A stretch of 41,397 nucleotides of DNA from Saccoglossus kowalevskii (Eukaryota > Hemichordata > Enteropneusta > Harrimaniidae): contig NW_003107589.1 of the NCBI RefSeq assembly GCF_000003605.2, forward strand, positions 239,529-280,925. The letters run 5' to 3'. A program made the translations under genes and the position numbers. Below, piece after piece: positions 2,844 to 41,397 of the stretch (position 1 is its first letter; the number at the start of each line of letters is the position of its first letter). The notes below the pieces were generated by a model. That model was given only the letters and a program-made list of their open reading frames with translations, had not been told where the DNA came from and made no database searches.

Positions 2844-3083
2844 CTATGTCAAGATCAAAATACTACAAATATATGAACAGCCTTGCCTCACGCCCTCGCC
2901 CCACGGGATACATACATAAGTTGGTACTTGTATTTTCAACGATGAGAGCGCACAACTGATATTACTCATCGTCGCGTTTCTGTAGTTTCTTCGGTCATCG
3001 ATTTTTTCATTCATCGGTTTCTCATGAATTCCGCCATACCAGTAAGGATATTTTGCAATATTCGCCATGTATTTCTTATTTAC
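2844..3083 (-). CDS. CFAP97D1/2: CFAP97D exon 5 (stop codon)
   Basis: Acceptor CCTTAG, then VNKKYMANIAKYP, matching the family's final RRYIRN-TRY-like helix, and an unrecognised tail to TAG at 2844. The first 15-20 codons are well supported; the distal part is less certain. Confidence 0.65.
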   Translation of the reverse strand, partial: VNKKYMANIAKYPYWYGGIHEKPMNEKIDDRRNYRNATMSNISCALSSLKIQVPTYVCIPWGEGVRQGCSYICSILILT

Positions 3084-5211
3084 CTAAGGGGAAGTTGGTG
3101 AAGATAAAGTAAATTACGAATCTAAACATTTGCAGCCGGGTTACTAGACCCCAGGGACTAGAGGGACCATCCCCCGGGACCATCCCTGATCAACCCGAGC
3201 ATTTGAAGAACCATTAGTTGCGCATGCGTACTAGTCACTAGTGACATGATACTTTATTCGATGGGGTGGCAACCATGTTCCGATCTCGAATCACTTTCTG
3301 GCATGAACGTATATTTTTGCATATATTACACAATAATTTGCATGACTTTTACATACAAATTTCCATAACTACTCGTATATTGTACCCGTAATTTGGTAGA
3401 ATATTTAAGTGATCTATACCATACGCCATCCAGCGCACACAAAAGAAAGACACAACCTGAAAGTACAAAACACCTACACTCCATTCGTCTTCCCACTTGA
3501 CATGGTTATAGTGCGCCTCTTTCATTAGAATACGTCTCAAAATGGCCTGGTTCTCGTGTGTAATGATTAGTAGCTCTCTTTGACGTTTTGTCTGATTCAA
3601 ACTACAAAAAGACAAACATTTTCAATCACGTCATTAGAAAATTAGATATGGCAATGGCGGTGCTGATAAAATTCGATGGTCATACTTGGATACCGAAACG
3701 TGGCACCTTGAACGTTCCCTGTAGCCGTATAATAGTATTTTATTGTCTGACTGTGTAAGTATAATATGATTCAGTACCTTTTTTGTTCATAAGCATTTCT
3801 GTTGTCCACCCGACCTCTGGTTCTCATGATATGGGACATCTTTTCTAAAAGAATGCGGTTGTCTCGCTCGATGGTTGCTAACCGTTCTTCTTCCATCTAC
3901 GACAAAAAAAATATACGCCAAACGTATGTAGACATGAATCAAAACACAGTCACGTGATCATGATGAAGATTGCCAAACATTTTCAACACACGTGACCCCG
4001 TTGAAAGGTATATTTTTCCCGCCAAAAAGTTGGTGCCGGACTGTGTACATTTGTATGTATATTTCTATAATTACATTGTAGGTTTGGACAAATTGGACCA
4101 CATCGATGTCATCTTCGCCAGCCAAGGACCATTTATTCGGCCGACGCCTCAACGTTCGTGGGCCCGCTATGAATGGCCGGCTTTAGTGAAACCGTGCGAT
4201 TCGGATGACGCATCGATCAGTGGCGGATCTAGGGGAGGGTTCGATTTTAAAGTTTGGACCCCCGATAAAAAAATCCTGTATCCGCCCATGTCGATGTATA
4301 CGTGATTATATTCGTCCAGTAAATAAACGAAAAAATAATTGCGTTTCCGAAGTCACCTAATAACACAGGGAGTACTAAAAAAATAAAATAAATAAAGTTT
4401 TTTTAACCCCTTCTGTGTAATATACTGTTCTTCGTGTCAATGGTCACCGCCGTTTATTTACGGTAGGTCCCGCTTATCCGTTACGTTCATCAATAATAAA
4501 GATTATTTAACAAACATTAAATTTACATATTCTTATCTATCATTGAGATAGTCTGGTTATAATAAATAATGTTTATCGCTTCTAGCAACTTTCACCAATT
4601 TTAGTATAGTCTCGATGCTCAGTGCACAGTGGTGTGTATATTACTTTGTATATATGTATAGTGCGCATATTGTAGTTTCAAATCGTATTCAAGACGACGG
4701 CCCCATACAACGGTAAATTAATGTCAATAATAATAAATAAAAGTGTTAATTACTCGCGTCTTACCTGTAGTTTCTTGAGTTTAAACTGTAAATGCATGTA
4801 TATATGGGGCGGTTTGTTGTCTATTACAGGCTTGGCTGAAATGAAAAAAAAAAGCGTCGTAATATATGTACTAATTTACGGCTTATCCCGATTGCAGTAA
4901 AAACAAACAAAAAACATTCCACGTGCCTCGACAGTTAAAACTAAAACAGTAAAACAGTGCTGGCTGACTCTTCAAAGCTTGCTTAGGATATGAGTTGTTC
5001 TTCATCATCGGCGTTTCATAAAATTAAATCCAGAATAAATGTCGTACTTCTGTATTATTCACAGAACATTAAAAGCCGTAATTTGCTCCCACTTACCGTT
5101 GCGTACCTTTCTCCTATGGGTATCGAATCGACTCTGGTCCCATCTTTTTTTCAACAGTTTGTTATTTGCCGGTGTTATTGGCTGGTAAGCACGATGGTGA
5201 CCACGATTCAT
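2844..5211 (-). CDS. CFAP97D1/2: CFAP97 domain-containing protein (CFAP97D1/CFAP97D2 type), five exons
   Basis: The minus-strand gene joins 5211-5097, 4835-4765, 3896-3778, 3601-3478 and 3083-2844. Phases match at all four junctions and give 222 residues. The start follows family architecture: a short N-terminus with HRAYQP and RWDQ, then AKPVIDNKPP, LKKLQ, EEERLATIERDNRILLEKM, TRGRVDNRN, SLNQTKRQRELL and ENQAILRRI, ending in WEDEW. This is the CFAP97/Hemingway-like domain, a mostly helical, charged region. From established knowledge, the mouse member CFAP97D1 is needed for sperm axoneme integrity and male fertility. The last exon carries a tail of about 60 residues beyond the homologous block, longer than I recall for vertebrates. 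It could be shortened by a further splice (GTACCA after codons SLKIQ). D1 and D2 cannot be separated by eye. The gene is divergent from CATSPER4. Confidence 0.88.
3163..3245. repeat. short direct repeat and palindrome in CFAP97D intron 4
   Basis: GGGACCATCCC occurs twice with 13-bp spacing (3163-3173 and 3176-3186). A perfect 12-bp palindrome, GTCACTAGTGAC, lies at 3234-3245 beside a GCGCATGCG core. The segment may be a decayed inverted-repeat element. Confidence 0.35.
3478..3601 (-). CDS. CFAP97D1/2: CFAP97D exon 4
   Basis: Acceptor TTGTAG, donor GTAGGT. It encodes SLNQTKRQRELL through WEDEWS and ends in phase 0. Confidence 0.88.
3778..3896 (-). CDS. CFAP97D1/2: CFAP97D exon 3
   Basis: Acceptor TCGTAG, donor GTACTG. 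It encodes the helical MEEERLATIERDNRILLEK core and TRGRVDNRN, ending with two bases of a Ser codon. Confidence 0.88.
4219..4291. repeat. small inverted-repeat element in CFAP97D intron 2
   Basis: GGCGGATCTAGG near the left end and a matching ATCCGCC near the right enclose about 60 bp of GC-then-AT sequence. This resembles the GGCGGATC-type ends of short non-autonomous DNA elements. Family not identified. Confidence 0.3.
4765..4835 (-). CDS. CFAP97D1/2: CFAP97D exon 2
   Basis: Acceptor TTTCAG, donor GTAAGA. The first two bases complete an Ala codon. It encodes the hallmark KPVIDNKPP motif and ends LKKLQ in phase 0. Confidence 0.88.
5097..5211 (-). CDS. CFAP97D1/2: CFAP97D exon 1 (start codon)
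   Basis: ATG at 5211-5209; 38 codons plus one base; donor GTAAGT follows 5097. It encodes the HRAYQP and RRKVRN segment before the conserved core. Confidence 0.85.
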
Positions 5212-5522
5212 TATTATTGATATAATTTGTGCTAGTTAAAACAGTTTTTTTGTCCCCCACTGCCGAAACGGTGTGTGCGCATATGACCTGTAGCCGTTAT
5301 GGAATCGAACTTTGGAATGCATTCCAGAATGGAGCGATTAGAAAGCTGTGGATCGACGCACTCACGTATTGCAGAAAACAGTTAAATGTTTTCTATTTTG
5401 CTAAATGTGACTATGCACAACGTAATTTATAAAGCTTGTTAGTGCAGACGCGTTTATTTGTAGATGTATTAAAACTTCGTTCATCAGAAATAATAGCTGA
5501 CGAGGTCACACGCAATATTGAC

Positions 5523-5544
5523 GCACGCGTTACCATACGCGTGC
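5523..5544. promoter_or_regulatory. 22-bp inverted repeat in CpG-dense block
   Basis: Perfect 8-bp arms GCACGCGT and ACGCGTGC flank the 6-bp spacer TACCAT, inside the most CpG-rich part of the divergent region. It could bind a dimeric factor. Function is unproven. Confidence 0.4.
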
Positions 5545-6120
5545 TACGCAGTACCCGAGCGCGCCCGTCGAGTCATGACGACACCTAGGGTCGTTCCATG
5601 TGGCGCGTGCTATGCCAGCGAGCTAACTAGCGATTTATTTACTCTAGTTTTGTAGGGATGGTTCACACTTGATTCAACATAACTTACAGATATATAGGTT
5701 TGGGTAAGTATGATTCTATTACCAAGAGTTTATAGTTATGCTAGCAGTTCCTGTGAAGTCAATGTTGAATGTCGTGTCATTTTGATATATGCCACTTTTT
5801 CATACGTCATAGGTGTAAACTGGAAAACCATATTTACAATGTCGATCAGCTTTCGATAAAGCGAGTAGTTGTATTATAAGAAAATTCGCATATACGCACG
5901 GCTCTTCTGGCTACTACTCGAAGTTTCCGCTGGTGCAGTTTTACGGGAAATAAAAGTTTTTTTTTTTTTTTACAATTTACAGTGAAAATTGAATTTTGCA
6001 GTGGATTGTGTCATCTAGTCGTTTTACAGTTTCGAAAATGTAATTTCCCTGGATTATTCTTTACGACTTTTTTTATTTAGATGTAAATTCTTGTACGTAC
6101 CGAGAAAAATGTCACATTTT

Positions 6121-6244
6121 ACAGTGTACGAACAAAATACTTGATTGATTACGTTGTACGTCTAGCCTGTGATTACAGAATTACGGAATTTATTTTTTCA
6201 ATTTACGTTGTACGAACAAAAAAATATTGCAATTACGTTGAACG
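6121..6244 (+). repeat. spaced ACGTTGTACG repeat upstream of CATSPER4
   Basis: Related 10-mers start at 6121 (ACAGTGTACG), 6151 (ACGTTGTACG), 6205 (ACGTTGTACG) and 6235 (ACGTTGAACG). Intervals are 30, 54 and 30 bp. After the first and third copies the sequence continues AACAAAA. A weaker copy (TTCTTGTACG) is at 6088. Confidence 0.5.
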
Positions 6245-6382
6245 AAAATAACCATTGCCCCCCTGAAAATAATGCCCACAAAAAAAACAAAAAAAAACAA
6301 CAATCATCCAGACAAGATTACATGAATGTGTGTAACCAGAGGTACATTACTTATTGTAACATCCAGTTTTCAGTCAATCCAG

Positions 6383-6631
6383 ATGGCTGCTACCACAAGA
6401 ATAGAATTGCCACTTGACAGTGTGCCAGCAATAGAATGTGAAGAAGAGGAACAGGACGAGCTTCGACCACTTCCTACTATGATGGGAGATAAACCCGGAC
6501 AAACCGATAAGCTTCAAGGAGCACGTCGAAGATCGACAATTTTTTCCACATTGTTGAGCGGAGATGGGGGAGCCGGTGAAACTGTTGCACTGGGGATTCG
6601 AAGACCCTCTCTCGTGGACAGAGTTCGCAAG
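6383..6631 (+). CDS. CATSPER4: CATSPER4 exon 1 (start codon)
   Basis: 83 codons; donor GTACGT. A charged, acidic-then-basic cytoplasmic N-terminus with no recognised domain. Confidence 0.8.
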
Positions 6632-9600
6632 GTACGTCACATTAGACATAGATGTAGTGACATGCATTTGCGATATATGAACTGTTTCGTCACACTCACT
6701 AACAATTGCTGAATTGCGTGGAAACGATAATTTCGTTCACTCTCGATAAATCACGCGTTTGGGTAGCTGCAGTTCTGTAGCTCACTTGGTTTCGTTGTCG
6801 GTTATTTCGTTCGTCGTGGTGTTAACGCGAAACCATGGACTGCAGCTACCGTTTGGGGCGTCTTCGCTCATACGGATCAGAATACGTATGCGCAATATTG
6901 GTATTTACGTAAACATTTAATCTTGAATTTGACCTATTTTGTATTCCACTATAAAATGAAAGCAACAGTGAATGCATGGTCCATACATTTCAAGGGAATG
7001 AGCTCCCACATTTTGACGTTTCCTTGGCATATTGCCCGAGTTTACATCGCCGCCGCGACGAGTTCGACCAATGACGTCTATGCAAATTGTTTTGTTTGTA
7101 ATTTTGAAATTTTTGTTGTTTTTTGTTTATTTGTGTTTTTTTTTTCTGATCTGTATCCTTACCATACAGCACCCACCGATGGTGCAGTTGTGTACGTAAT
7201 AAAGTTACTATTATTCATTTGTGTATGTTCACAGCTCAGTAACACGTGGGTGATGAGAACCCTTGAAGACAAGAAAAAAAATCTTTCATCCGAGTAAGTG
7301 TATTAGTTCGTTGAAATACCCCTCACGATACCCTGAACGTCTTGTCAGAATATAAAGATCCTCTACCAACATACTCAGTTGAAAATTACATCATATTTCT
7401 GATATTTACGTTGTTGTTAATTTTTAGATGGGAGATTCACCGACAGTTTACATTTGACGCTTCTGAGGTAAGAAGATTCAATTTTAAGTTTATATTGAGA
7501 GTAACTCCGGAAACAAGGAACTATTTATTTCGTTTTTTGCAGTCAATTTGTTTTTCCGCAATGTCCATAAAGCTTGATTGCGCCATGATAGTCGTTCCTA
7601 TGCAGTGTTGAGTGGACCAGTAACCGTCAAAGCCAGGGCACGCACACGTCACATTACTACGCACAATGTGTTCCTATGATTCTTATTTTATTTTATCGTA
7701 TACAGTTGTCACCATATCGCCATGAATGTACTTGTTTTGTTTGTAGTTAAAACAGGGGGCGTCAATGACGGATGTTTTCAAAGATGAAGTTCACGAAGAG
7801 GATTTCAACGATATTGTGGACCAAGATGATGAAAGGGTAGAAGCGTTCGTCTCTCAGGTGAACTGACTGACTTTAAAATTGATAGAAAACAGCGTGACAA
7901 GTTGGTAAAAACGTTCGAAACGTTGGCGGAGTAACCTAATTAATAACGGCCCCCGGAACGGCCCCTCACTGACGGCTCAAGTGTTTTCACATTCAGTAAA
8001 CTGAAGAACGGGGTCTTTGCGCCGCGCATGTGCGACATTTGTGTTGATAACACTCATTGATCAAAGTCGCTATCTTTGTTGTCGCCATCATGAGTCCCAT
8101 ACCTCGCGCATGCGTGACGCGACGACAACGCCCTTTAAGTTGGCACGTTACCATTTTCGAGTTGGCTCAATCCTTCCCTGATTCAATATGTTATCCATAT
8201 TACCCACATGGAAAATGATAACACAAAAGGCACTGAGAGGGATGTAGATACAAAACCATGCAAAAAAATGCGAATGGTAAATTTTACTATAAATGGAATT
8301 TGGCGATTTAGGTCATTTTTTACATTTAATTTGTTTAGGTTTATGTTTTGAGTTCAATTGCAGTAAATGTTTACTTACGGTTCCCCCTTCATCTGAGAGA
8401 ATTCCTAGTTATGTTTCCTATGCTGACATGATGACATTTTATTTCATCAGGAACTAGTTGGCAGGATGGTAGAAAGTGAAATGTTTCGATTCTTTATTCT
8501 AGTAATGATAGTGTTCAACGCTATTCTCATTGGTTTGCAGACAGACGAAACACTTGTGAGTATTTGTTTGAAGTTGAGCAATACTTCTGGATTCTGTGCC
8601 GATAACAATGGGTCTGGAAAAATGTTTTTGTTACCCGCCTATCGAGGTGTGGGATCTGTTTAGTCTGAGCAGCAATCTGTGTTCAGATTGAGCTTCTGTT
8701 GACATATGTTCACCAGCAAGGAGCATATTGAACTAAATAGTGCGCACTCTCCAGTCTATAACCTTCGTTATTCATACATACATACATACATATCCACAAT
8801 CTCCTTCTCATAGATCTTTGCTCTTTACGCAATAGTACCCATGTCACAGACAGCCTTCAATTTTGTGGTTAATCATCCTACTAAACACTACTCATTTTTT
8901 TGCAGTTGTTTTACCTGAAAAAGTACTACAAAAAATGTTGTGACAACCGAACTATTTATTAATGCATGAATCCACATCCGTCTCAAAGTTTTGCCACCAT
9001 AACGGGAGGACAATAATAACCGAGTTCAACTAATTTTTCTCGGTGACGCTGTTTTGATTTCAGTCGGAGGAGAATGCTGCTTTATTCTCCATCCTCGACA
9101 ACTCTGTTCTGGCAATATTTGTCTGTGAACTCTTACTAAAGTGGTACTATAATTTCTTCATATTTTGGCGAGTCAGCTGGAATATTCTGGACTTTGTCAT
9201 CATTGCGGCTCTTATACTTGGACCAAGTAAGTATTCTGCCGTTTTAGATCGCAAAATGGGACTCAATAAATCACACAACAATGTTTTTGGTTTATTATGT
9301 ACAATCACGTAGATATTTTCTCATGGTACAATTACATATCATTCGTATTTTTGTTACAGTTATATTTTTCAAAAATTGCTATATTAAAACAATTTCAAAG
9401 AACACAATGTTAAAGAAAAATTGCATTTTTGACACAGTTTAAAATTCACAATAAAGAAAGCCTATGTCCTCAGCTATGTGGCAAAATATCTATGCCGTGA
9501 GAACCTAAAAGGAGACGATATTGGGGTGGGACAAGTAATAAGACTTCGCTGTTTATTTACTCCATTACAGCATCGAAAGATGGTATTCCATTTTTGCATT

Positions 9601-12600
9601 AGAATCATGTTGTGACTGATTTGTTGGTTTCATTTCCCATGCTATAACTATAACCTGAAATATGTACCCCGTTTTGTCATTTCATTTCAATCATAGCTTT
9701 GAAGTTTTTGGGCAGCAGCAGAAGCTTGAGAATTCTAAGAGTGTTTAGAGCTTTTCGAAGTCTCAGAAGGTATGTTCTACGAAATCCTCATGTTTTGTTA
9801 TCATGATGTTTATCAACAATGCGAATATTGAGTAATGTCGCATTTTAGGACAATCTTAAATTATTTCTTGGGACTGGTCACTAATAGTTGAAGGATTTGT
9901 AATGTACTATCACTTGCAACTTAATTGTGTTTCGATAACTACATTATGCGTGTTATGTAATCACAGAAAAAACAGTAAACGATTAATTAAAAAAACGAAA
10001 ACATTTCTATCAAAATCATTATTAATATAATAATATATTAATTACTAGTAAAACAGTGAATGAGAAAAGTATAGGCACTTTTGTCAATTGTAATGGAATT
10101 TGTGTTTTGAATTTTGAATTATTCTTCGTTTCAAATTTTGTCTGGTGATATACTTCAAGAACTCTGCCAGGTGCCAAATACTATTTCTTTCTATCAGCAT
10201 TTCTATTACATGTATCTCTCTTTACTAGCGGCAGGATTTGTCATGTATATATGTCACGAGAATTTGTCAATTGACATCCAGTCCAATCTTTAATTAACTT
10301 GCATTAAACAATAATATTAAACAAATTTATATTTTTCTTGCATATTATACTTTTATGACAACCGCTGCATTGTTTTTTTCAGTGTCAGTGCACTGGCTGG
10401 ATTATCAGTCGTAGTGCAAACTATCGTCCAGTCCATACCGGGTACGTATCACACATTTACTAACCGTTTGTTTCAATGCGAAATATGTTTATACTGATCT
10501 ATCGTCAACCATGGCGACACAGTAACGGCGTACAGCCTAAGGTCACTATTTGTTGAATTTCACCGAATTTTCTTCGTTACCTTAGAAACTTGTGAGCTCT
10601 GGTAACGAGAAACAAAAAAACGTTTTAAAAAAAAACGTTAACTTGAAGTTTGGTTAAGGTAGAAGACTACGCATAAATTAAAATACCAAGGCAATATAAG
10701 GATATTGACCTAAAAAAAGTTGGGGGTCACAAGCCTTTTTTGAGAAATTGATGGTTGTGTTTTAGTGGAAAGTCGCCATTTTGACACTATTATAACACTT
10801 TTACCACATGATCCTATGGCAGCGATATTATGAAATATCTAAAAATCTAGCCAGGTGACATAGGCTGACAAAATCATATATTCTTAATGATGGAGTACTT
10901 TTTGTAGTTCTGAATTATTTAAAAATCTTGGTTTTAAAAAGTGTCAAAAAATTGCAATTTTTCTTTAATATTGTATAATATGGAATTGTTCTAAAAATAA
11001 CAATTTTCAAGAAATATTAGAACACTTTTCTCAAAAAGCTCAACTGTAACACAAAATAATGCTATTTCATTGCGCAATGGGACATTAGCTTCATGATTGT
11101 ATATAATAAACATTGTCGTGCGATTTATGACCAATTTTGTCGAAAATTATGACTAGGTTTCTACCTTAACTGTTAATTAAAGACCAAGTTAAAATTTGGG
11201 CGTGGTTCTGCAAAAGTGAGCGTGGTCCGTCATTTTCGTAACTCGATGTCTTTAACTCGAATTTAGCATCTCAAACATTAAACGTGTATTGGATCGTCAA
11301 AACACCTCCCTATAAGCTATTTTACCGTGCGTGGCGCACTTGTGCGCAAAATTGCAAAAAAAGGTGTGAGGCACAGATTTCAAACTGGCGCACGATAAAC
11401 TCTGTTTTTGCTTTATTTCGGGATTACGCAAAACGCTAAGCTATGTTTTTTTAGTTGTTTGGAAAAAGTCTACACTTGAACTTGTCTAAACTTTGTATCG
11501 ATATATTACAGCGGGGAGTCGTCACCTGCGCATGCGTCAGATGGCCATAGCGTGTCATTGTTCACAAACAAGCGTCTACCCATGAGACTTTGCGTTTTTA
11601 ACGTGTGTTGTTATCGTCGCTTGGGACTCAATCTCGCGCGTGCGCAGGTGACGACCCTCCCGCTTTAACGTATATTCGTGAGTACGGCTACTCGCCAGAT
11701 GCGGGTAAAACGTTGTTTTCAAAACGTCACGCCTGGTTACAATAAAATATGATATGAGTCCACTTGACATAACATAATTTACAAATCAACTCCCTAGTGT
11801 TGAGTAACCCCAGGTATTAATGAACTCATTGGCGCCGCTGTAAAATTAGGTGCGTTCGGACGTTTAAACTCACACATTCACAAGATAATAACGGTGTGAA
11901 ATATGTCTGTTTTTTTGATCGTATGTTTTGTTTCTATTTTTCTGAAGTGTATTTGGTTCTAGCAAACTATTAACATACTGTCGTAGCTTAGTAAAGTCTC
12001 GATGACGACATGACGATAGAGGGCACAATCCACGAATTGTTCGAAATCTTCTAAAATCGACACGAGGACACCCTTGTTTAATAATTATTTTGTATTTAAC
12101 AGATATGCTGAATATCAGTCTGCTATTGGTGGTTATCATGGTGGTTTTAAGCGCCGCTGGAGTTTCTCTGTTCGGCAATGACCTGCCTATGCATTTCGGA
12201 AATATGGGAACTGGTGAGTGACACATGATGTAGCAGTGACGTCATTGTGACAGGCCAGCAGCAGCTGATGTAACTTAGTTTTACGAATTTGAATATATGT
12301 GACGTAATCATATGCAGGTCTTTCTCTTTTTCTGTAACGTTAATAGTTAGAAACGATTTAATTAATTTTCCCATCCGATAAATATTTTACCCAAAAGTTG
12401 TTAATTTCTTATCGAAACCGACATACTAGTAGTTTGACGTTTGACGGATGCAATCAACATGTTAACACACTTTGTTGAACAAATGCTCATTCAAAGACGG
12501 TGTACATGTCTACTCCTCGGGCTGTAACTACTGAAGAGGAACGGTGACGGAGTGCCCTCAACAATTTCCATACCACCCTTTTATCCGTTCACTCATTCAC

Positions 12601-15600
12601 TCAATCAGTAAATAATGTCACAGGGTCACTGTTTCTCGGGCACCGTCTATCTTTTGAGTAATCACTCTAAATATCTATAAACGGTTACTGTATTTTCTTA
12701 AAACTCAAGTAAGTACTAAACAACTACTCAAATAGACATCTGATATATTCACTCGAAGTACGGTATGAGAATGTCTTCAGAAATATGAACGTGCTCCCGG
12801 CAATGCAACTTGTCATTGTGAACCATTGGAAAAAATGCCTCAGAACAGCTTCCCAATGAAATAATATCGGCTGCTAATCGAATTTCCACTTATATTTTTT
12901 TTCGCTGAGATGTGCATCATACTCTAGATCCGACTTGTGTATTTACATGAACGTTTTCACTTTGAACTTTCTATCATCTTGTATATTTGCAGCAATGTAT
13001 TCTTTATTCATATGCGTAACCCAAGATGGTTGGATGGGTATTTTCAGTGATTTCAAGACAAAGGTAAAGACATATTTTTCGTGATGCTGATATATTGATT
13101 TATATAATAAATTTATTTATAAATAAATAAATGTGTACATAATTATGACAGACCCCCCCCCCCGAAATGTAGAATAAACGAAGTCCTGCACATGTTTTTC
13201 CAATGTTTCATTTCAACTAATGGTATATTCAACAGAGCGAAGGCGACGCATACTTCACGATTGTCGGTGGAGTTTATTTCTTTATCTGTATTTTGATTGG
13301 TGCGTTCGTTTTTGCTAACTTGGTTGTTGCTGTTATGGTTACCAATCTGGTAAGTGGTGTTATCGCATCGTTATTGATTGATTGATTGATTGATTACATG
13401 ATGGGTACCTACGGAGATGTCTACTCACATACGCTCATTAACGATTACAAAGGGCAGGGACTTATCTGTCGATTACGGAGAGAACCCCGCCCGTTTTTAT
13501 ATAAAAGTAAGCAATTGTAAAACTGGAAGCTGACTAAATTGTACATTTTTAAAAATGTAGCTATCAAATATATATTAGAAATTCGGATACACTTTCATGT
13601 GAATTCACAGTTCCAATTGGCTGCCATACCCAGAAGGTATAATAGTGTTTACTATTGAAATCCCGTTTTATATGAACGAGCAACGTTGACAAAAACATGC
13701 TCAGTTATTGATGTAGCATCTTGTCGATAACTGCAAATCTGCCGAACAATCGGCAAAGGAACCTATTCAGACAACTTTTACGCCAATCTGAACCATGTCA
13801 ATATAGGCGTTTTAATGTTTTATACAGTTTTTTTTCTGACATTCGCGATTTAGATATATTCGATTCAGTCTGGCATAGTTTTTTGTTATTACTTTGGGTA
13901 TTATGATTTGTTGTCACTGTTTACGTAATGTAACTTTAAGAAACAAGTTGAGATTCGTTTGAGTTTTGTTCGATTCAATAAATAAGAAAGCATACATTTT
14001 CAAACAAATTATTTATTGGAAACTAGCAAAGAAAATTGTCAACAATCTCCTCGTTAACCCCCTTTTTATTTCACATTCAGAATTATAGTGTATTTTGTAT
14101 TTTTATTTACCGATACTATCTACATATCATATCAGTCGATCTCGATATCATATCCAAGACTCGGCCCAATCATGAATTTGCCATACAACTGATAAGCGAT
14201 ACAATTATACTTTTTACTATTATAAACTCGTCATGCATTGACAGTAATATTTGAGAACCCCCCGGTCATACTATTAAATATTCTATATTATACATATTCT
14301 ATAGCTCATTTTACGTCAAAGCATATATAGTATGTCGAAATTTCAATGAAGTAAAGTGAAACTCGAGTCCTATGTTGTTTTCGTGTCGTGTGTTGATACT
14401 CTTTACACGTATTGATTCGTCCTCAAGGATAAAGCTATGAAGGAAGTAAAAGAAGAAAAGAAAATGCGCGAAGATACGCTAGCCACCGAAAGCCCTAAAG
14501 TAAAAACCGGTGAGCGTAAGACAAGACAAATAACGACTCGACAAATTATATAGATCAATAGTACATACGCATTTAATCTCGAAGCGAGTATCTTTTCATA
14601 CGTAATCACAGAAAAAAAATGTGACAGCAATCCAAGGTGTGATTAAAGCAATTCGAGCTATTGTCATCTAATGTACAAAGCTAACAGAGTTCCATTGAAT
14701 ACACGTGAAACGTTCAAGCATCGGGCTTCAAAAACGTATATAGCGTTTCTTTGATTGTAATTATCGTCTTAACCACTGTAATTTAATATAGTTAACACTG
14801 TGTAAAGTATATCCGTGCTGCAATTCTTAAATTAATGAAAATCTCCCCAAGTGAAAATAGCGTGTCTTTTACATACACTAGATACTGTGCAAGAGAAAAA
14901 CGTGCCTGTCATAAGCGTCCAGGACGTTGTAGACTGCGTCGAGTTATCAATGCAGAACCCTCTCCATTACGGGGTACGTGTTGATTTTACTCATTTCACA
15001 CGATGTGCAATTTATTAGTTTTCCAATCGGTCAACTTTGCTGTGTATATATATAGTACAAAAACTGATTTGCATTATGCAAATCAATTCCAACTTGTCAT
15101 CCCTCATTATAATCTGTTCACCCAATGACAAATCGTATCGCTGAAATTTTCTGACAGCACAACTGCAACAGCATATTTCACTACTAGGATTCTAGTTTCC
15201 TTACTGCGAGTTTAGTTGGCAAAACTTTTGCATATAAGTTGCATATCTATGATGAAATCGAATCTGTGACGATTCAGGAGATGTGTTAGGCAAAATTATA
15301 TCATCATGATAACCACTAATATCACGTTAACTTGGCCAATCACAATGCTTGTAACAACAATGAGATATGCTAATTGTTTTATGAACCTATCATAATGCAG
15401 GACTTTTCACATCTCACCCATGAGAAGTATGAGAACTTTTTACTGGCTCTCTCAGCCATAGAGGATAATCTGGTTAAATATAAGCAACTACGTAATGAAT
15501 TGGACCAGGTGAGATAAATGCATGCATTGATTATCATATCAATTTGACTTTGAATTTTTCAAGTAAAACGAGTATTTTAAGGACTAGGGAAAACGAAATC

Positions 15601-17258
15601 CATTTATCGGAGAAGAGACATCACATTTGTCAATCCATATTTTGAAAACATGAATTGTTTATTACAACATGCATACTATTTGCCGATTTATTAGTTATCG
15701 ACGCATGCTGATTGGCCTACCTGGCATGTTCTCTTTTGATGTCAGTTTCAATTCACATGCCTTTTTGCGCTTGTTATCTCGGTCCTAGATTTTTGAAGTC
15801 ATTTGGGATTTGAATATGCAGGCCATTGATGAAGATCACAACTCTGATTCAGATAACGAATCGTCTGATTCTCAACCGGATAATACCACTACTTCCACAC
15901 CCATTCCCATCGATCTCATAGGGGTAAGTAGAGCCATAACTAGTATCCACACATCTTGGCAGAAATTTAGGATTTCAAAATCGGAATACTCATGCACAAT
16001 GACAGACGTCGCATCGCACCGTGTTCGCAATAGATATATTTGAACTCTCTCCACAAAGACTAACATCGTTTACTGTACACGCCCAGACTGTATATAAGAA
16101 AAACAAAATATCGAATTACAGGGGAAATGCCGAAATAAACTATACCTAAAATCAAAACATTTGTGTGTACAATATTCAGTTGATAAGTGTCTGCAATATA
16201 TTTCTAAGAATGAGATATGTGCGTAATTAATGAAGTCACATGATTAGCTATTTTTTATTCGAATTACCTCAACCACGAGGAAAACATCCAGTCAATAAAA
16301 GCGCATCTTCATTAATCTTTTGAAGTTTTGCCATGTACATAATTTATGAAGCCACGTGACCACTTTGTAGTTTATCTGAATTTTCTTATCTTCGTGGGCA
16401 ACCTCCGGTTTGTAGTATTTATTTGCAATCTAATTTCTGGGAATTAGATATGTGCATAATTAATAAGGTCGTGTGACCCATGAATAGTTAATCAAAATCT
16501 TTAGTAAGTGTGTATTTGCAATAGATCTATACACAATTAACGATGTAAATGTCCACAATATACAGTTCTACATCCTTCGGATATCCCATAATGCATTGTA
16601 AAATCACGTGACATTCATTTGTGACCTCTCAAATAAAGACTAACATCCCTTATACAAAATATTGTGTTTAATACACCGGCACAAATCCAGGCAGATCCTT
16701 AATGACCTCTCAATGATAGTGTCCAAATCCAGCGGGGCCACTCTCCGCGTGACGTCGTACCATCATCGTGTTTAAAACGCGGTTTTAGGGGTGCTTTTTT
16801 GGAGTTATTTAGAATTCTAAATTCGTCGTTCTCAGAATCCAAGTAATAATGTGACGATTCAAGTCGAAGTTTCGGTAAAACCTATCAGGTAAATCAAAAA
16901 CTGTGTAGACTAAATAAACAGGTGTTAAAACTGAACACATTTTCCCTCCACCGATTCATTAAGAAATACGTGAAGCGAACGTTTCTTTCTTTTTTACCTG
17001 CTACCCATAACAATTTATCTGTCATTGTATCTGCAGAAACGTGGCGACATTTTGTCGAACTTGATGGCAATGGAGAAAAGCAACTACATAACCTCAAAGT
17101 CAGCAAACATCGGAACAATAATCCAACAGAGTGCGCAGGTCATCGATAAGACTATGCATGGTCCGATGCCAAGCAGAAGCCGTGGCTACATCAACAGGGC
17201 GAAATTCGCTCAGATGGAACAAAAGTTAAAACAGAAGTTCGATGAGGACGATGCCTAG
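6383..17258 (+). CDS. CATSPER4: cation channel sperm-associated protein 4 (CatSper4), sixteen exons, complete
   Basis: Sixteen exons join in phase into 586 residues. CatSper4 is one of four pore subunits of the alkalinisation-activated Ca2+ channel of the sperm flagellum, needed for hyperactivated motility (established knowledge). Seen here: a hydrophilic N-terminus (1-153); S1 about 165-184; S2 about 199-217; S3 about 225-242; S4 with Arg at 251, 254, 257, 260, 263 and 266; S5 about 288-311; pore filter TQDGW at 333-337, fitting the CatSper T/S-x-D/E-x-W signature; S6 about 355-385. The C-terminal tail contains a helical segment (452-479), an acidic Ser/Asp/Asn stretch (480-500) and a final block with LMAMEK. 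The pore ([11 protein letters not shown]), S6 and the tail helix match CatSper4 rather than CatSper1-3. Human CatSper4 is shorter (about 470); the excess lies in the N- and C-tails. ATG at 6383 is chosen because the previous in-frame ATG (6326) adds residues of no evident relation. Confidence 0.93.
7235..7293 (+). CDS. CATSPER4: CATSPER4 exon 2
   Basis: Acceptor TTCACAG, donor GTAAGTG; ends with two bases of Glu103. N-terminal tail. Confidence 0.8.
7428..7467 (+). CDS. CATSPER4: CATSPER4 exon 3
   Basis: A 40-bp microexon between TTTTTAG and GTAAGA, encoding [13 protein letters not shown]. Its length fits both neighbouring phases. Confidence 0.78.
7747..7857 (+). CDS. CATSPER4: CATSPER4 exon 4
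   Basis: Acceptor TTGTAG, donor GTGAAC; 37 codons. An acidic pre-S1 linker comparable to the segment before S1 in human CatSper4. Confidence 0.82.
7999..8138 (+). mobile_element. MITE family B, internally deleted copy
   Basis: The left part resembles the B terminus (GCGCATGTGCGACATTTGTG). The right part resembles its other end (CTCGCGCATGCGTG, then CCTTTAA). The middle found in the 23250 copy is missing. It lies in CATSPER4 intron 4; the left boundary is approximate. Confidence 0.5.
8451..8555 (+). CDS. CATSPER4: CATSPER4 exon 5 (S1)
   Basis: Acceptor ATCAG, donor GTGAGT; 35 codons. Transmembrane segment S1 ([18 protein letters not shown]). Confidence 0.92.
8772..8792 (+). repeat. (CATA)n microsatellite
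   Basis: About five CATA units in CATSPER4 intron 5. Confidence 0.7.
9064..9226 (+). CDS. CATSPER4: CATSPER4 exon 6 (S2-S3)
   Basis: Acceptor TTTCAG, donor GTAAGT; ends phase 1. Contains S2 with CELLLKW and S3 with WNILDFVI, both typical of voltage-gated cation channels. Confidence 0.93.
9697..9769 (+). CDS. CATSPER4: CATSPER4 exon 7 (S4 voltage sensor)
   Basis: Acceptor CATAG, donor GTATGT; phases 1 in, 2 out. Encodes [16 protein letters not shown], with arginine at every third residue. Confidence 0.93.
10383..10441 (+). CDS. CATSPER4: CATSPER4 exon 8 (S4-S5 linker)
   Basis: Acceptor TTTCAG, donor GTACGT. Encodes the S4-S5 linker ending QTIVQSIP, as in human CatSper4 (ILQSVP). Confidence 0.92.
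10654..11169 (+). mobile_element. MITE family C, copy 1
   Basis: About 516 bp with terminal inverted repeats TTAAGGTAGAA and TTTCTACCTTAA, AT-rich and without coding capacity. Internal sequence matches the reverse complement of the 21788-22279 element. It lies in CATSPER4 intron 8. The ends include TTAA, suggesting a TTAA target. Confidence 0.7.
11506..11668 (+). mobile_element. MITE family A, copy 1
   Basis: 163 bp with inverted ends (GTCGTCACCTGCGCATGCG on the left, TGCGCAGGTGACGACCCTCC on the right), followed by CTTTAA. The centre is inverted relative to the copy at 22955-23117, which has the same length. Located in CATSPER4 intron 8. Confidence 0.78.
12103..12213 (+). CDS. CATSPER4: CATSPER4 exon 9 (S5)
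   Basis: Acceptor TAACAG, donor GTGAGT. S5 ([20 protein letters not shown]) and the pore turret start. Confidence 0.92.
12993..13063 (+). CDS. CATSPER4: CATSPER4 exon 10 (pore)
   Basis: Acceptor TTGCAG, donor GTAAAG. Pore helix and filter [10 protein letters not shown]; Asp335 is the expected Ca2+-coordinating residue. Confidence 0.94.
13236..13349 (+). CDS. CATSPER4: CATSPER4 exon 11 (S6)
   Basis: Acceptor AACAG, donor GTAAGT; 38 codons. S6 gate helix with [19 protein letters not shown] and TNL at its end. Confidence 0.93.
13372..13395 (+). repeat. (GATT)n microsatellite
   Basis: Five to six GATT units just after the exon 11 donor, in CATSPER4 intron 11. Confidence 0.8.
14428..14509 (+). 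CDS. CATSPER4: CATSPER4 exon 12
   Basis: Uncommon AAG acceptor (CCTCAAG), donor GTGAGC; ends phase 1. Lys/Glu-rich cytoplasmic helix directly after S6, matching the position of NLEQMMK in human CatSper4. Confidence 0.82.
14882..14973 (+). CDS. CATSPER4: CATSPER4 exon 13
   Basis: Acceptor CACTAG, donor GTACGT; phases 1 in, 0 out. Cytoplasmic tail with no recognised motif. Confidence 0.8.
15401..15508 (+). CDS. CATSPER4: CATSPER4 exon 14
   Basis: Acceptor ATGCAG, donor GTGAGA; 36 codons. [18 protein letters not shown] aligns with the conserved tail helix of CatSper4 (human LEAIQENLRQYKE). Confidence 0.9.
15822..15923 (+). CDS. CATSPER4: CATSPER4 exon 15 (acidic insert)
   Basis: Acceptor ATGCAG, donor GTAAGT; 34 codons rich in Asp, Ser, Asn and Thr, probably disordered. 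Confidence 0.82.
16041..16660 (+). repeat. degenerate ~117-bp tandem array in CATSPER4 intron 15
   Basis: Related blocks (ATGTGCGTAATTAATGAAGTCACATGA-like, each with a CACGTGA/CATGA end) start at 16217, 16333 and 16450, 116-117 bp apart. A weaker one is near 16588. AAAGACTAACATC recurs at about 16052 and 16636. Boundaries are approximate. Confidence 0.4.
17037..17258 (+). CDS. CATSPER4: CATSPER4 exon 16 (stop codon)
   Basis: Acceptor CTGCAG; 73 codons plus TAG. NLMAMEK matches the human C-terminal SALVSMEK block; the end is basic then acidic (KQKFDEDDA). Confidence 0.9.
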   Translation, partial: KRGDILSNLMAMEKSNYITSKSANIGTIIQQSAQVIDKTMHGPMPSRSRGYINRAKFAQMEQKLKQKFDEDDA

Positions 17259-26000: not shown

Positions 26001-28736
26001 CGTAATACGTCAACACCCTGGGATTTATGCATCCAGGCAAGTCTTCAATTTATCGAATTGCTTGCCTCTACTGTTAGCGAAACAATGGATTGCCAAAGGG
26101 CACATGGTCTTTTATGGAAATGAAAAAAAACAAAACGTCACGACATGACACAAGTGAAAATACGTTTTTAAAATGGGTGGCAGAGTTCAATGTGGAGTAA
26201 TTTTGTTTATTCTGATACATTAGCATATTGCTCGTCGAACTATGCACAGCTGGTGGTGTTTGCTAAACAGTGGATCGCAGACAGTCACACTAATAATGGA
26301 AAGCATTAAGGTTGTGACACGAGTCAAAATATATGTGTATCAGTAGAAGTCAAGGCAATGTGAATAATACTGTGAATATTACATGTAGTGTATATACGTA
26401 CTTTAATATTTAAATGCTAAACCACTGAATACCCACTGAGATAAATTCTCAATGAATAAATAAATACGTAAATTTTTAATAATCTTTATCTACATGAATT
26501 ATATAATTAAAAATAAGAAAGAGAAATTTTGAAGGCGATAATCTAAAGAAAAAACGAATCGACTGACCGCAATACAGTAATCTACTGTACTTTGGCTCTT
26601 CTTTAATGCATAGTCTATTGTTATATTTGACAATAGGTATTTCCCACAAGAGCGGTCAAAATTCATAATAATCCCAATTCACGAAAAAGAACAGTACTCG
26701 TGACCCTAACAATTTCATAGATATCAGCCTCCTCGGCATGCTCAGCAAAATATTTATTGGTATCCCGGGCAAACTCAAACTTTGGGCAAATGAATATAAC
26801 AAAATTCCGGAGGTGCAGGCAGGTTTTAGGGAGTGGTATTATATTGGTCACGTATTCACTTTGACAGATATCGTTCAAAAATATCTATCACATAAGTATG
26901 GAAGATTATATTGTATACATGCCAACTTCCGGAAGGCATTAGTTTGATTGATTGATAGAAATTTTCCCATGTACTGGTTGAGTATAGACGGGATTAATGA
27001 AAATATTTTATTATGTATTTACGGCGATGTTGAATTGGCAGGTTTGTCAAATATTTAAAGGTTTGTGACAAAAGAGTATACACATTTATTATTTGCTGAG
27101 GACTACTACTTGGGCGCTTACCAAAGAGCACCTATAAAATGCTTTTGAATATGTATAACCATGGCATAACTAACAGGGCAAATAAAATAATGCAACTTTT
27201 GGATAATTTATGTTTTTCTACAGTTTTGGAGATCCCGGAAAAATTACTAATTTCTGCTTGAGTTGAAATCAATAATTGAGAGACACCATAGTGGTGATAG
27301 AGAGCACCAATCATCGTATCTAATTTTCCGAATAATATGGGTCAGAAGATTAGTGGACATGATGATGACAGAGAAAGGAACACTATGAGCGTGGGTTAAG
27401 GGTTGGATCTATAGTGAGCAATCGCAGCTGCAGCGACACTGTACACACCAAGTGATACATTAACCATATAACGTTACTATTTCTGAACATCAAGTCAAAT
27501 GTAAGAACGTCTGTGGCCAGATACTAACATCGTAGTAACACCGTATGTCTAGGCTCAGTCTCTCGATACTACTCACTTTAAGTGTATCACACCTACGTTT
27601 CACTATATATGCATAATACTGCATTAAAGCGTTCGGCACACACAATTATCCAGGTTTTCACATTCCTGAGCTTGTTATGCCATAGGCTTACAGTGATTAC
27701 ATTTATCATGTCCTTGAATTTGGTTGGCTGATCAGTTATTCTCTTACTTTCTACCCATTGAACACATCGGATTACAATTCTACCATGTCTTTTCCAGGTC
27801 AGGTGTGCCAACACATGGCGACATAGTAGTCTATCAGTGCTTTGACCAGTCCTTGCAACATCCTACCATTCTGTAAACCTATGATCACTGTACCATTATT
27901 GACAGTTGACAAGTAGAATTCTTTCACTCGTGGTGCTCGGTTAATGAATGCATTCCTAGCAATGAATATTACATTATCCTGTTCGCATTTGTTAATTAAG
28001 TTGTCTTCGCTATATTAACGTGAGCTATGTATACAGTCAACTCCACATCAACGATCTACAGTTTATTAAGCTTGAACAGTAAATAATATTTCGATATCAT
28101 TCCACCATTTGGTCTTTTCGGTTTTACATTATTAAAGCGCGGTAGTCGTTGCGCTGCGCATGTTCGACATTTGTGATGATAAACATTGGTTTTCCCACAA
28201 TCCAATGCGCTCCTCAAATGGAAATTACAAGGATGAGGTTTGACCTGGGCGCGACTTGCACTGATTACCGCCGTTTACTCCTTCGATACATTCCAATCAC
28301 ATGAAAATTACCTAATTAAAGCTTGGAAACGTGTCAGTTCGTACTCGTACTCATATCAAAGACTGATGCTTGGATGCTGTCAAAGCCCCAAAGTGATTGG
28401 TCTTCACATGCATACATTATATGGTGAATCATTGATTGGTCTTCACATGCATACATTATATGGCGAATCATTGATTGGTCTTCACATGCATACATTATAT
28501 GGTGAATCATTGATTGGTCTTCACATGCATACATTATATGGTGAATCATTGATTGTTCACTGCTGTGTGCATCCACACTTCAAACAATTCGAGCACATAA
28601 TCTGGCTCTGACACTGTATTCCGCTTTTTGAGCTTTTGTTTTGTTTCTGTTTTGATTTCTTGTTTGCCTGAGGAAGCACCGTCAGGATTTGTTGTTGTTA
28701 TTGGCTGTGATTATTGTGCATCTTCCTTTACTTTTT

Positions 28737-28809
<73 letters not shown>

Positions 28810-40398: not shown

Positions 40399-41199
40399 CT
40401 GGTACACGTGAAATGTATAACACTTTATTTCATTTCCTGTAGATTATTACTTATACATATCATACACGTTCTCGACCCATTACTGGATGCATTACCCAGA
40501 CAAAGTGTACAAAACGTTACATATACTTAGGAATCTAAATAAACGCAATAGCAAAAAAAAAAAAAAAACACAATACATAGGGATAATCACTAAATATCAC
40601 ATTACACACAGCCAATGTCCATATTACATTCTCAAATGTTGTTAAATTGTGACTATATTCTGATGATTTAAACTATTACACACATTAAACAGGAAACAAT
40701 TCATTGACCAAAGTTACGACATGGTGCGATGCAAATAAACTGATCATAACTCAAATTATCTAATAATTGGAAGCAGTAAACATTACAAACATTGTGTTGG
40801 ATTTCTTTGAAAACCGATTAAAGAAGTACAAAATGCAAAGTTTCCATTGACAATCAATCAATTGTCGTGGCGATAGTAAAACTAGTGTATTTTTCTGAAA
40901 ATGTCCGCCCACAGCAAATTCTCTGGTTTAGACTTTTGTGGATATATATATACGCCCTAAGGATATATATCTCTTACAGAAATCAAGCGTTCGTATCTTT
41001 TAATGAACCTTTAATGATAGGACCACGTATTCAACCTCATCACTTTTGGAAGTTTAACATTTTTACTATCTACAAACAGCACAAGTTACAGCTTTGACTT
41101 TTTTGTCCATGATGTTGTCAACGGCAGGTTATCATTTTTTTAATTTAAAGATTGATCATTCATATAATACCAGGCAATCTCTATATATGTGTATTGTAT
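40399..41199. other. 5' part of receptor gene, no exon found
   Basis: I searched for a minus-strand signal-peptide exon with a phase-1 donor and found no convincing one. It contains an A-run at 40553-40568. Confidence 0.4.
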
Positions 41200-41397
41200 A
41201 TGCAATTTATTAACGCTTTGTTTGAAGAAAACAGAAAGAAATTAGAGGAGGTGCAGGCTGCTAACCAATTACTTGTGGAAGAGAACAGAGTCCTGAAATA
41301 CAGAGTCTCGGATTTAGAATGTAATCATAACGAATTAGATCAGTATATAAGAAGAGAAAACCTTGTCATTAGTGGTGTGCCACAAACAGAAAGTGAA
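41200..41397 (+). mobile_element. partial ORF1-like protein of a non-LTR retrotransposon
   Basis: The frame is open from an in-frame ATG at 41200 to the window edge (66 codons). The peptide is a Glu/Lys/Leu/Asn-rich coiled coil (NRKKLEEVQAANQLLVEENR) followed by YIRRENLVISGVP. The YxRRxNLxIxGxP signature after a coiled coil is typical of LINE ORF1 proteins. The 3' part lies outside the window; the 5' end is not defined. It could instead be a domesticated copy. Confidence 0.6.

Follow-up and report, generated by a model that had tools for sequence, protein, structure and literature searches.

Gene pair and its surroundings

The window analysed here (the whole stretch of 41,397 bp of Saccoglossus kowalevskii DNA) contains a CFAP97D-type gene on the minus strand and CATSPER4 on the plus strand, placed head to head with start codons at 5211 and 6383. 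The two start codons are separated by 1,171 bp, a distance between coding starts and not between mapped transcription starts. The features of the pair and of the DNA between them are listed below.

2844..5211, minus strand: CFAP97D gene, 5 coding exons (222-aa model, Hmw_CFAP97 domain, match to 8snb_4T)
5097..5211, minus strand: first coding exon of CFAP97D (donor GTAAGT; N-terminus HRAYQPITPANNKLLKKRWD matches 8snb_4T)
5212..6382, no strand: interval between the start codons, in which no gene was seen
5212..5928, no strand: part of the interval for which no other copy was found (a search of the 572 Mb genome gave a single candidate, the query locus)
5511..5640, no strand: CpG cluster (18 CpG in 130 bp, 57% GC)
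5929..6263, no strand: dispersed mobile element, short and terminal-inverted-repeat-like, left terminus missing (genome search, 7 copies compared)
6332..6345, plus strand: weak X-box-like sequence GTAACCAGAGGTAC (score 11.7 of 20.7, rank 7 in the window; not significant)
6383..6631, plus strand: first coding exon of CATSPER4 (gene model; in-frame ATG also at 6326)
6383..17258, plus strand: CATSPER4 gene, 16 coding exons, 586 aa (Ion_trans, match to 7eeb_D, TQDGW pore)

The CFAP97D exons (5211-5097, 4835-4765, 3896-3778, 3601-3478 and 3083-2844, minus strand) are separated by GT-AG introns with fitting phases, and the C-terminal tail of the 222-aa model is uncertain. The Pfam search detected the Hmw_CFAP97 domain (PF13879, E=1.9e-27) in this short protein, and the closest solved chain in the PDB was 8snb_4T, "Cilia- and flagella-associated protein 97" (E=9.1e-69, query residues 6-173); the queries of both searches had provisional C-terminal ends and predated the final model. 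The N-terminus aligns with 8snb_4T from residue 2 of that chain, the C-terminal tail is unaligned, and 8snb_4T has 231 aa versus 222 aa in our model. The next relatives were 9v10_Aa and 8otz_Z, both named CFAP97D1 (E of 2e-23 and 1e-22). 8SNB is reported as the sea urchin 48-nm doublet (PMC10973386), and the nearest relative of the window protein is a flagellar doublet-microtubule protein. A testis-only expression pattern was described in PMC7444823 for CFAP97D1 of mouse and human, and not for Cfap97d2 of mouse.

The genome was also searched with CFAP97D exon by exon, and all five candidates were scored, with four of them listed. Two of these four matches were exons 3 and 4 of the window gene itself, one match on contig C1861 (E=4.6e-8, open frame of 536 aa) was over the cut-off, and the match on contig C204 (E=0.42) looked like chance. 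No second CFAP97D copy was seen by this exon-by-exon search, which missed the first two exons of the window gene itself.

The CATSPER4 exons run from 6383-6631 to 17037-17258, and all 15 introns are GT-AG. We detected the six-segment ion-transport domain (Ion_trans, residues 164-390, Pfam E=9.4e-38). The closest solved chain, first of 162 PDB matches of which the best 60 were listed, was 7eeb_D, the mouse CatSper4 named "Cation channel sperm-associated protein 4" (E=2.9e-68). T-type Ca2+ channels came next, with E of about 1e-61 reached by summing several repeats; eighth was another CatSper4 chain, 9ubw_D (250 residues), and no CatSper1-3 chain was named among the best 60 of the 162. This ranking, which is that of a similarity search and not of a tree, places the protein nearer to CatSper4 than to the other channels.

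The pore motif TQDGW is encoded in exon 10 and aligned to the identical motif of 7eeb_D, in agreement with T-x-D-x-W, the CatSper Ca2+ filter motif (PMC5558725). The S4 segment (exon 7, 9697-9769) carries six arginines, one at every third residue, whereas only two such residues are given for CatSper4, printed as "neutral", in the review PMC5558725; as read from the sequence, the six-arginine S4 may provide stronger voltage sensing. The in-frame ATG at 6326 is preceded by a stop codon at 6323, and CATSPER4 might start at this ATG, in which case the spacing of the pair would be 1,114 bp. An AG dinucleotide immediately 5' of 6383 would permit a splice acceptor, therefore CATSPER4 may have a non-coding first exon upstream.

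The gene identities, strands and spacing had been proposed by the sequence-only reading and agree with the gene models, domains and closest solved chains; the positions it gave, 5097 and 6631, coincide exactly with the inner boundary of the first exon of each gene. An intervening gene, which it had named as evidence against its proposal, was not seen in 5212-6382: the 48 frames of at least 20 aa overlapping this interval, inspected by eye, yielded no third gene besides the pair, and the window contained 0 Rfam matches at gathering score and 0 tRNA. A hidden gene between the pair was rejected because no reading frame in the interval was convincing on inspection by eye, and a hidden RNA or tRNA was rejected on the Rfam and tRNA results. 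The two genes thus lie on opposite strands with no gene seen between them, as in bidirectional pairs.

In human, the two homologues are on separate chromosomes, as that reading had stated: CATSPER4 maps to 1p36.11 (table in PMC5558725), and CFAP97D1 maps to chromosome 17, given as 17p21, with the mouse gene on chromosome 11 (PMC7444823). The pairing may be lineage-specific, as it had proposed. CatSper was reported in Echinodermata in PMC6660944; the synteny given in this source covers SLC9C, ADCY10 and SLC9B, not CatSper4. None of the papers searched treats CFAP97D1 and CATSPER4 together. The mitochondrial COX1 of this genome (contig C4830, frame of 529 codons) contains TGA and TGG nine times each, AAA once, ATA ten times and neither AGA nor AGG; by eye, most ATA occupy positions at which other COX1 sequences usually have isoleucine. 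Given the known mitochondrial codes, this usage would weakly indicate Ambulacraria and, with AAA so rare, perhaps a hemichordate.

A class-C receptor gene, GABA-B-like by eye, occupies about 19866-40429 on the minus strand, tail to tail with CATSPER4. One of four receptor pieces was over the Pfam cut-off for 7tm_3, a second 7tm_3 match and an ANF_receptor match were below theirs, and one piece had no match; a fifth receptor piece had no match in the PDB, and the NCBIfam search gave no match. Four dispersed repeat pairs were detected in the window (11505-11669/22954-23118, 23243-23468/28122-28348, 10690-11169/21788-22220 and 9252-9444/10932-11139), and most of their stretches also match other sampled loci of the genome. 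Tandem copies of an approximately 39-bp unit, as judged by eye, are present at 28394-28558, near a long CA run (about 28740-28806). The open frame at the right end (41149-41397, plus strand) resembles the first ORF of a LINE by eye, and had no Pfam match over the cut-off.

CpG cluster, mobile element and motifs of the interval

The CpG cluster at 5511-5640 is the densest of the window; the runner-up has 16 CpG, starts from 11611 and overlaps a window repeat. Its distance to the start codon is 300-429 bp on the CFAP97D side and 743-872 bp on the CATSPER4 side. The cluster as a repeat was not supported, as 5212-5928 found only itself in the genome (a search that leaves out simple repeats and very common words). 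No 130-bp stretch with at least 16 CpG was detected in 20 sampled 10-kb loci, all of one contig and with 96,927 of 200,000 bases readable; this is a weak control because of the single contig, the readable fraction and the CpG o/e, which is 0.73 in the sampled loci versus 1.07 in the window. We suggest that the cluster is likely the CFAP97D promoter and possibly a bidirectional one.

The mobile element (5929-6263) lies between the CpG cluster and CATSPER4, and its right end sits 119 bp before the CATSPER4 start codon. It matches at least 39 other places of the genome with 88-96% identity; this count is a lower bound, obtained with the whole interval as the query (of 367 candidates 40 were scored, including the window locus itself), and repeats within 6264-6382 could escape such a search. 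The element had no match in the 20 sampled loci (96,927 readable bases). Subtraction of the 335-bp element brings the start codons to about 836 bp from each other.

Seven of the 39 copies were compared, and in all of them the right end is TTGCCCCCC, followed by unrelated DNA. The left end mirrors it in five of the seven, with GGCAAG within a run of G; copy L036 has only the G run at the left, and in copy L034 the left part is missing. The ends are GGGGGGCAAGGG-like in other copies. L036 is flanked on both sides by TCATTATAG, likely a target-site duplication, and the remaining copies are less clear by eye. This structure would fit a short terminal-inverted-repeat element, which we assume to be perhaps of the hAT kind.

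Scanning of 17 motif forms (5 full X-box, 1 RFX half-site, 2 FOXJ1, 2 A-MYB, CRE, TATA, NF-Y, SP, NRF1, YY1 and Inr, each as a general consensus) detected no strong RFX or FOXJ1 site in the interval. The best full X-box-like site was GTAACCAGAGGTAC at 6332, with 0.20 such hits expected per interval, and an RFX half-site, GTTACCAT, was found at 5529, inside the CpG cluster, with 0.11 expected. Both are mildly rarer than expected before correction and not significant after 17 tries. A shared regulatory signature was rejected, none of the 17 forms being convincing. The literature search found nothing linking CATSPER4, RFX2 and promoter, and nothing combining bidirectional promoter, cilia, head-to-head and RFX.

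Promoter arrangement of the pair

Both genes are certainly beyond chance, and the pairing itself is not clearly so. The number of divergent pairs with both genes flagellar that is expected by chance was computed as 0.4-7.9 per genome under assumed inputs (20,000-30,000 genes, 10-14% of them in pairs, 500-1,500 flagellar genes). The cilium gene set comprises 386 genes in one count (PMC10425847), and with about 386 flagellar genes the arithmetic from this count gives less than one such pair. The fraction of genes in divergent pairs was reported as 0.11-0.14 for four chromosomes of medaka (PMC11676430) and as more than 10% in human (PMC12672016).

Divergently paired genes described in PMC12672016, PMC11676430 and PMC3403606 likewise consist of two protein-coding genes in opposite orientation whose 5' ends are neighbours; in PMC12672016 and PMC3403606 the defining distance is one of less than 1 kb between transcription starts, whereas for the window pair it is that between start codons. 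The mouse Catsper1 promoter was described as bidirectional, with the starts of the Catsper1au lncRNA mapped 224 and 291 bp away (PMC5645346). In this system a CatSper pore gene likewise has an opposite-strand transcript starting upstream, but the partner is an lncRNA with mapped starts at these short distances, in contrast to the protein-coding axonemal partner in the window and its start codon 1,171 bp from that of CATSPER4.

We favor an ordinary divergent pair in which the two genes have partly separate promoters and the mobile element has changed the spacing, and assign to this reading a probability of about 0.6. This is because the CpG maximum is nearer to CFAP97D, in DNA for which one copy was found, the 335-bp repeat stands between the cluster and CATSPER4, no strong RFX site was detected, and divergent pairs are common, with several both-flagellar pairs per genome at the upper end of the range expected by chance. 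The CpG cluster would be the core promoter of CFAP97D, and CATSPER4 would be transcribed from a promoter of its own, within or immediately adjacent to the 119 bp that part the element from the first exon, or from a non-coding exon further up. Both genes would be active in sperm-forming cells, each via the general flagellar-gene programme and not via one common promoter. The transcription starts of both genes are guesses in this scheme. What counts against the ordinary divergent pair is the spacing without the element, which is within the range of true bidirectional promoters, together with the mildly rare motif hits at 5529 and 6332 and, if only about 386 genes are flagellar, the expectation of less than one such pair by chance.

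The shared germline promoter proposed by the sequence-only reading fits the locus less well, as the CpG cluster is toward CFAP97D, the mobile element parts it from CATSPER4 and no strong RFX site was detected. In its explicit form, one bidirectional germline promoter centred on the cluster at 5511-5640 would drive both genes, and the element would have been inserted later into the CATSPER4 5' untranslated region or promoter-proximal DNA, extending a distance of about 0.84 kb to 1.17 kb. In favor of this form, the interval contains the window's densest CpG cluster, in a sequence for which the genome search gave one copy, the spacing without the element is about 836 bp, and both genes have flagellar homologues. 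Co-expression was reported for 50.8% of divergent pairs in medaka testis (PMC11676430), bidirectional pairs in human and mouse correlate more than other neighbours do (PMC3403606), and mouse Catsper1 provides a precedent (PMC5645346); these reports count for the shared promoter and against the ordinary pair. The off-centre position of the cluster, the result for RFX and FOXJ1 with the 17 motif forms, and the non-coding RNA, not a protein gene, as the Catsper1 partner make the shared promoter a tentative second reading, with odds well below even. Its stronger version, in which this lineage has a structural gene of the sperm axoneme and a Ca2+ channel pore gene locked to one CpG-rich germline promoter and the insertion is changing the spacing, is unlikely.

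The mobile element itself might supply the CATSPER4 promoter, replacing or supplementing an older one: its right end is 119 bp from the start codon, and 39 other places share 88-96% identity with it. Its position is by itself weak evidence for such a role, which we consider quite improbable. Even less credible is an assembly artefact behind the head-to-head order, which the 4,830 contigs of the 572 Mb assembly might suggest; the window and the interval are inside one contig of 531,031 bases, and 5212-5928 matches only here.

As it stands, CFAP97D and CATSPER4 form a well-supported divergent pair, and the locus illustrates that a mobile element can inflate the distance between start codons. If the shared promoter were true, the assembly of the axoneme would be tied to the assembly of its Ca2+ channel through gene order, and the locus would provide a compact entry point for studying how sperm genes are regulated in a marine deuterostome.
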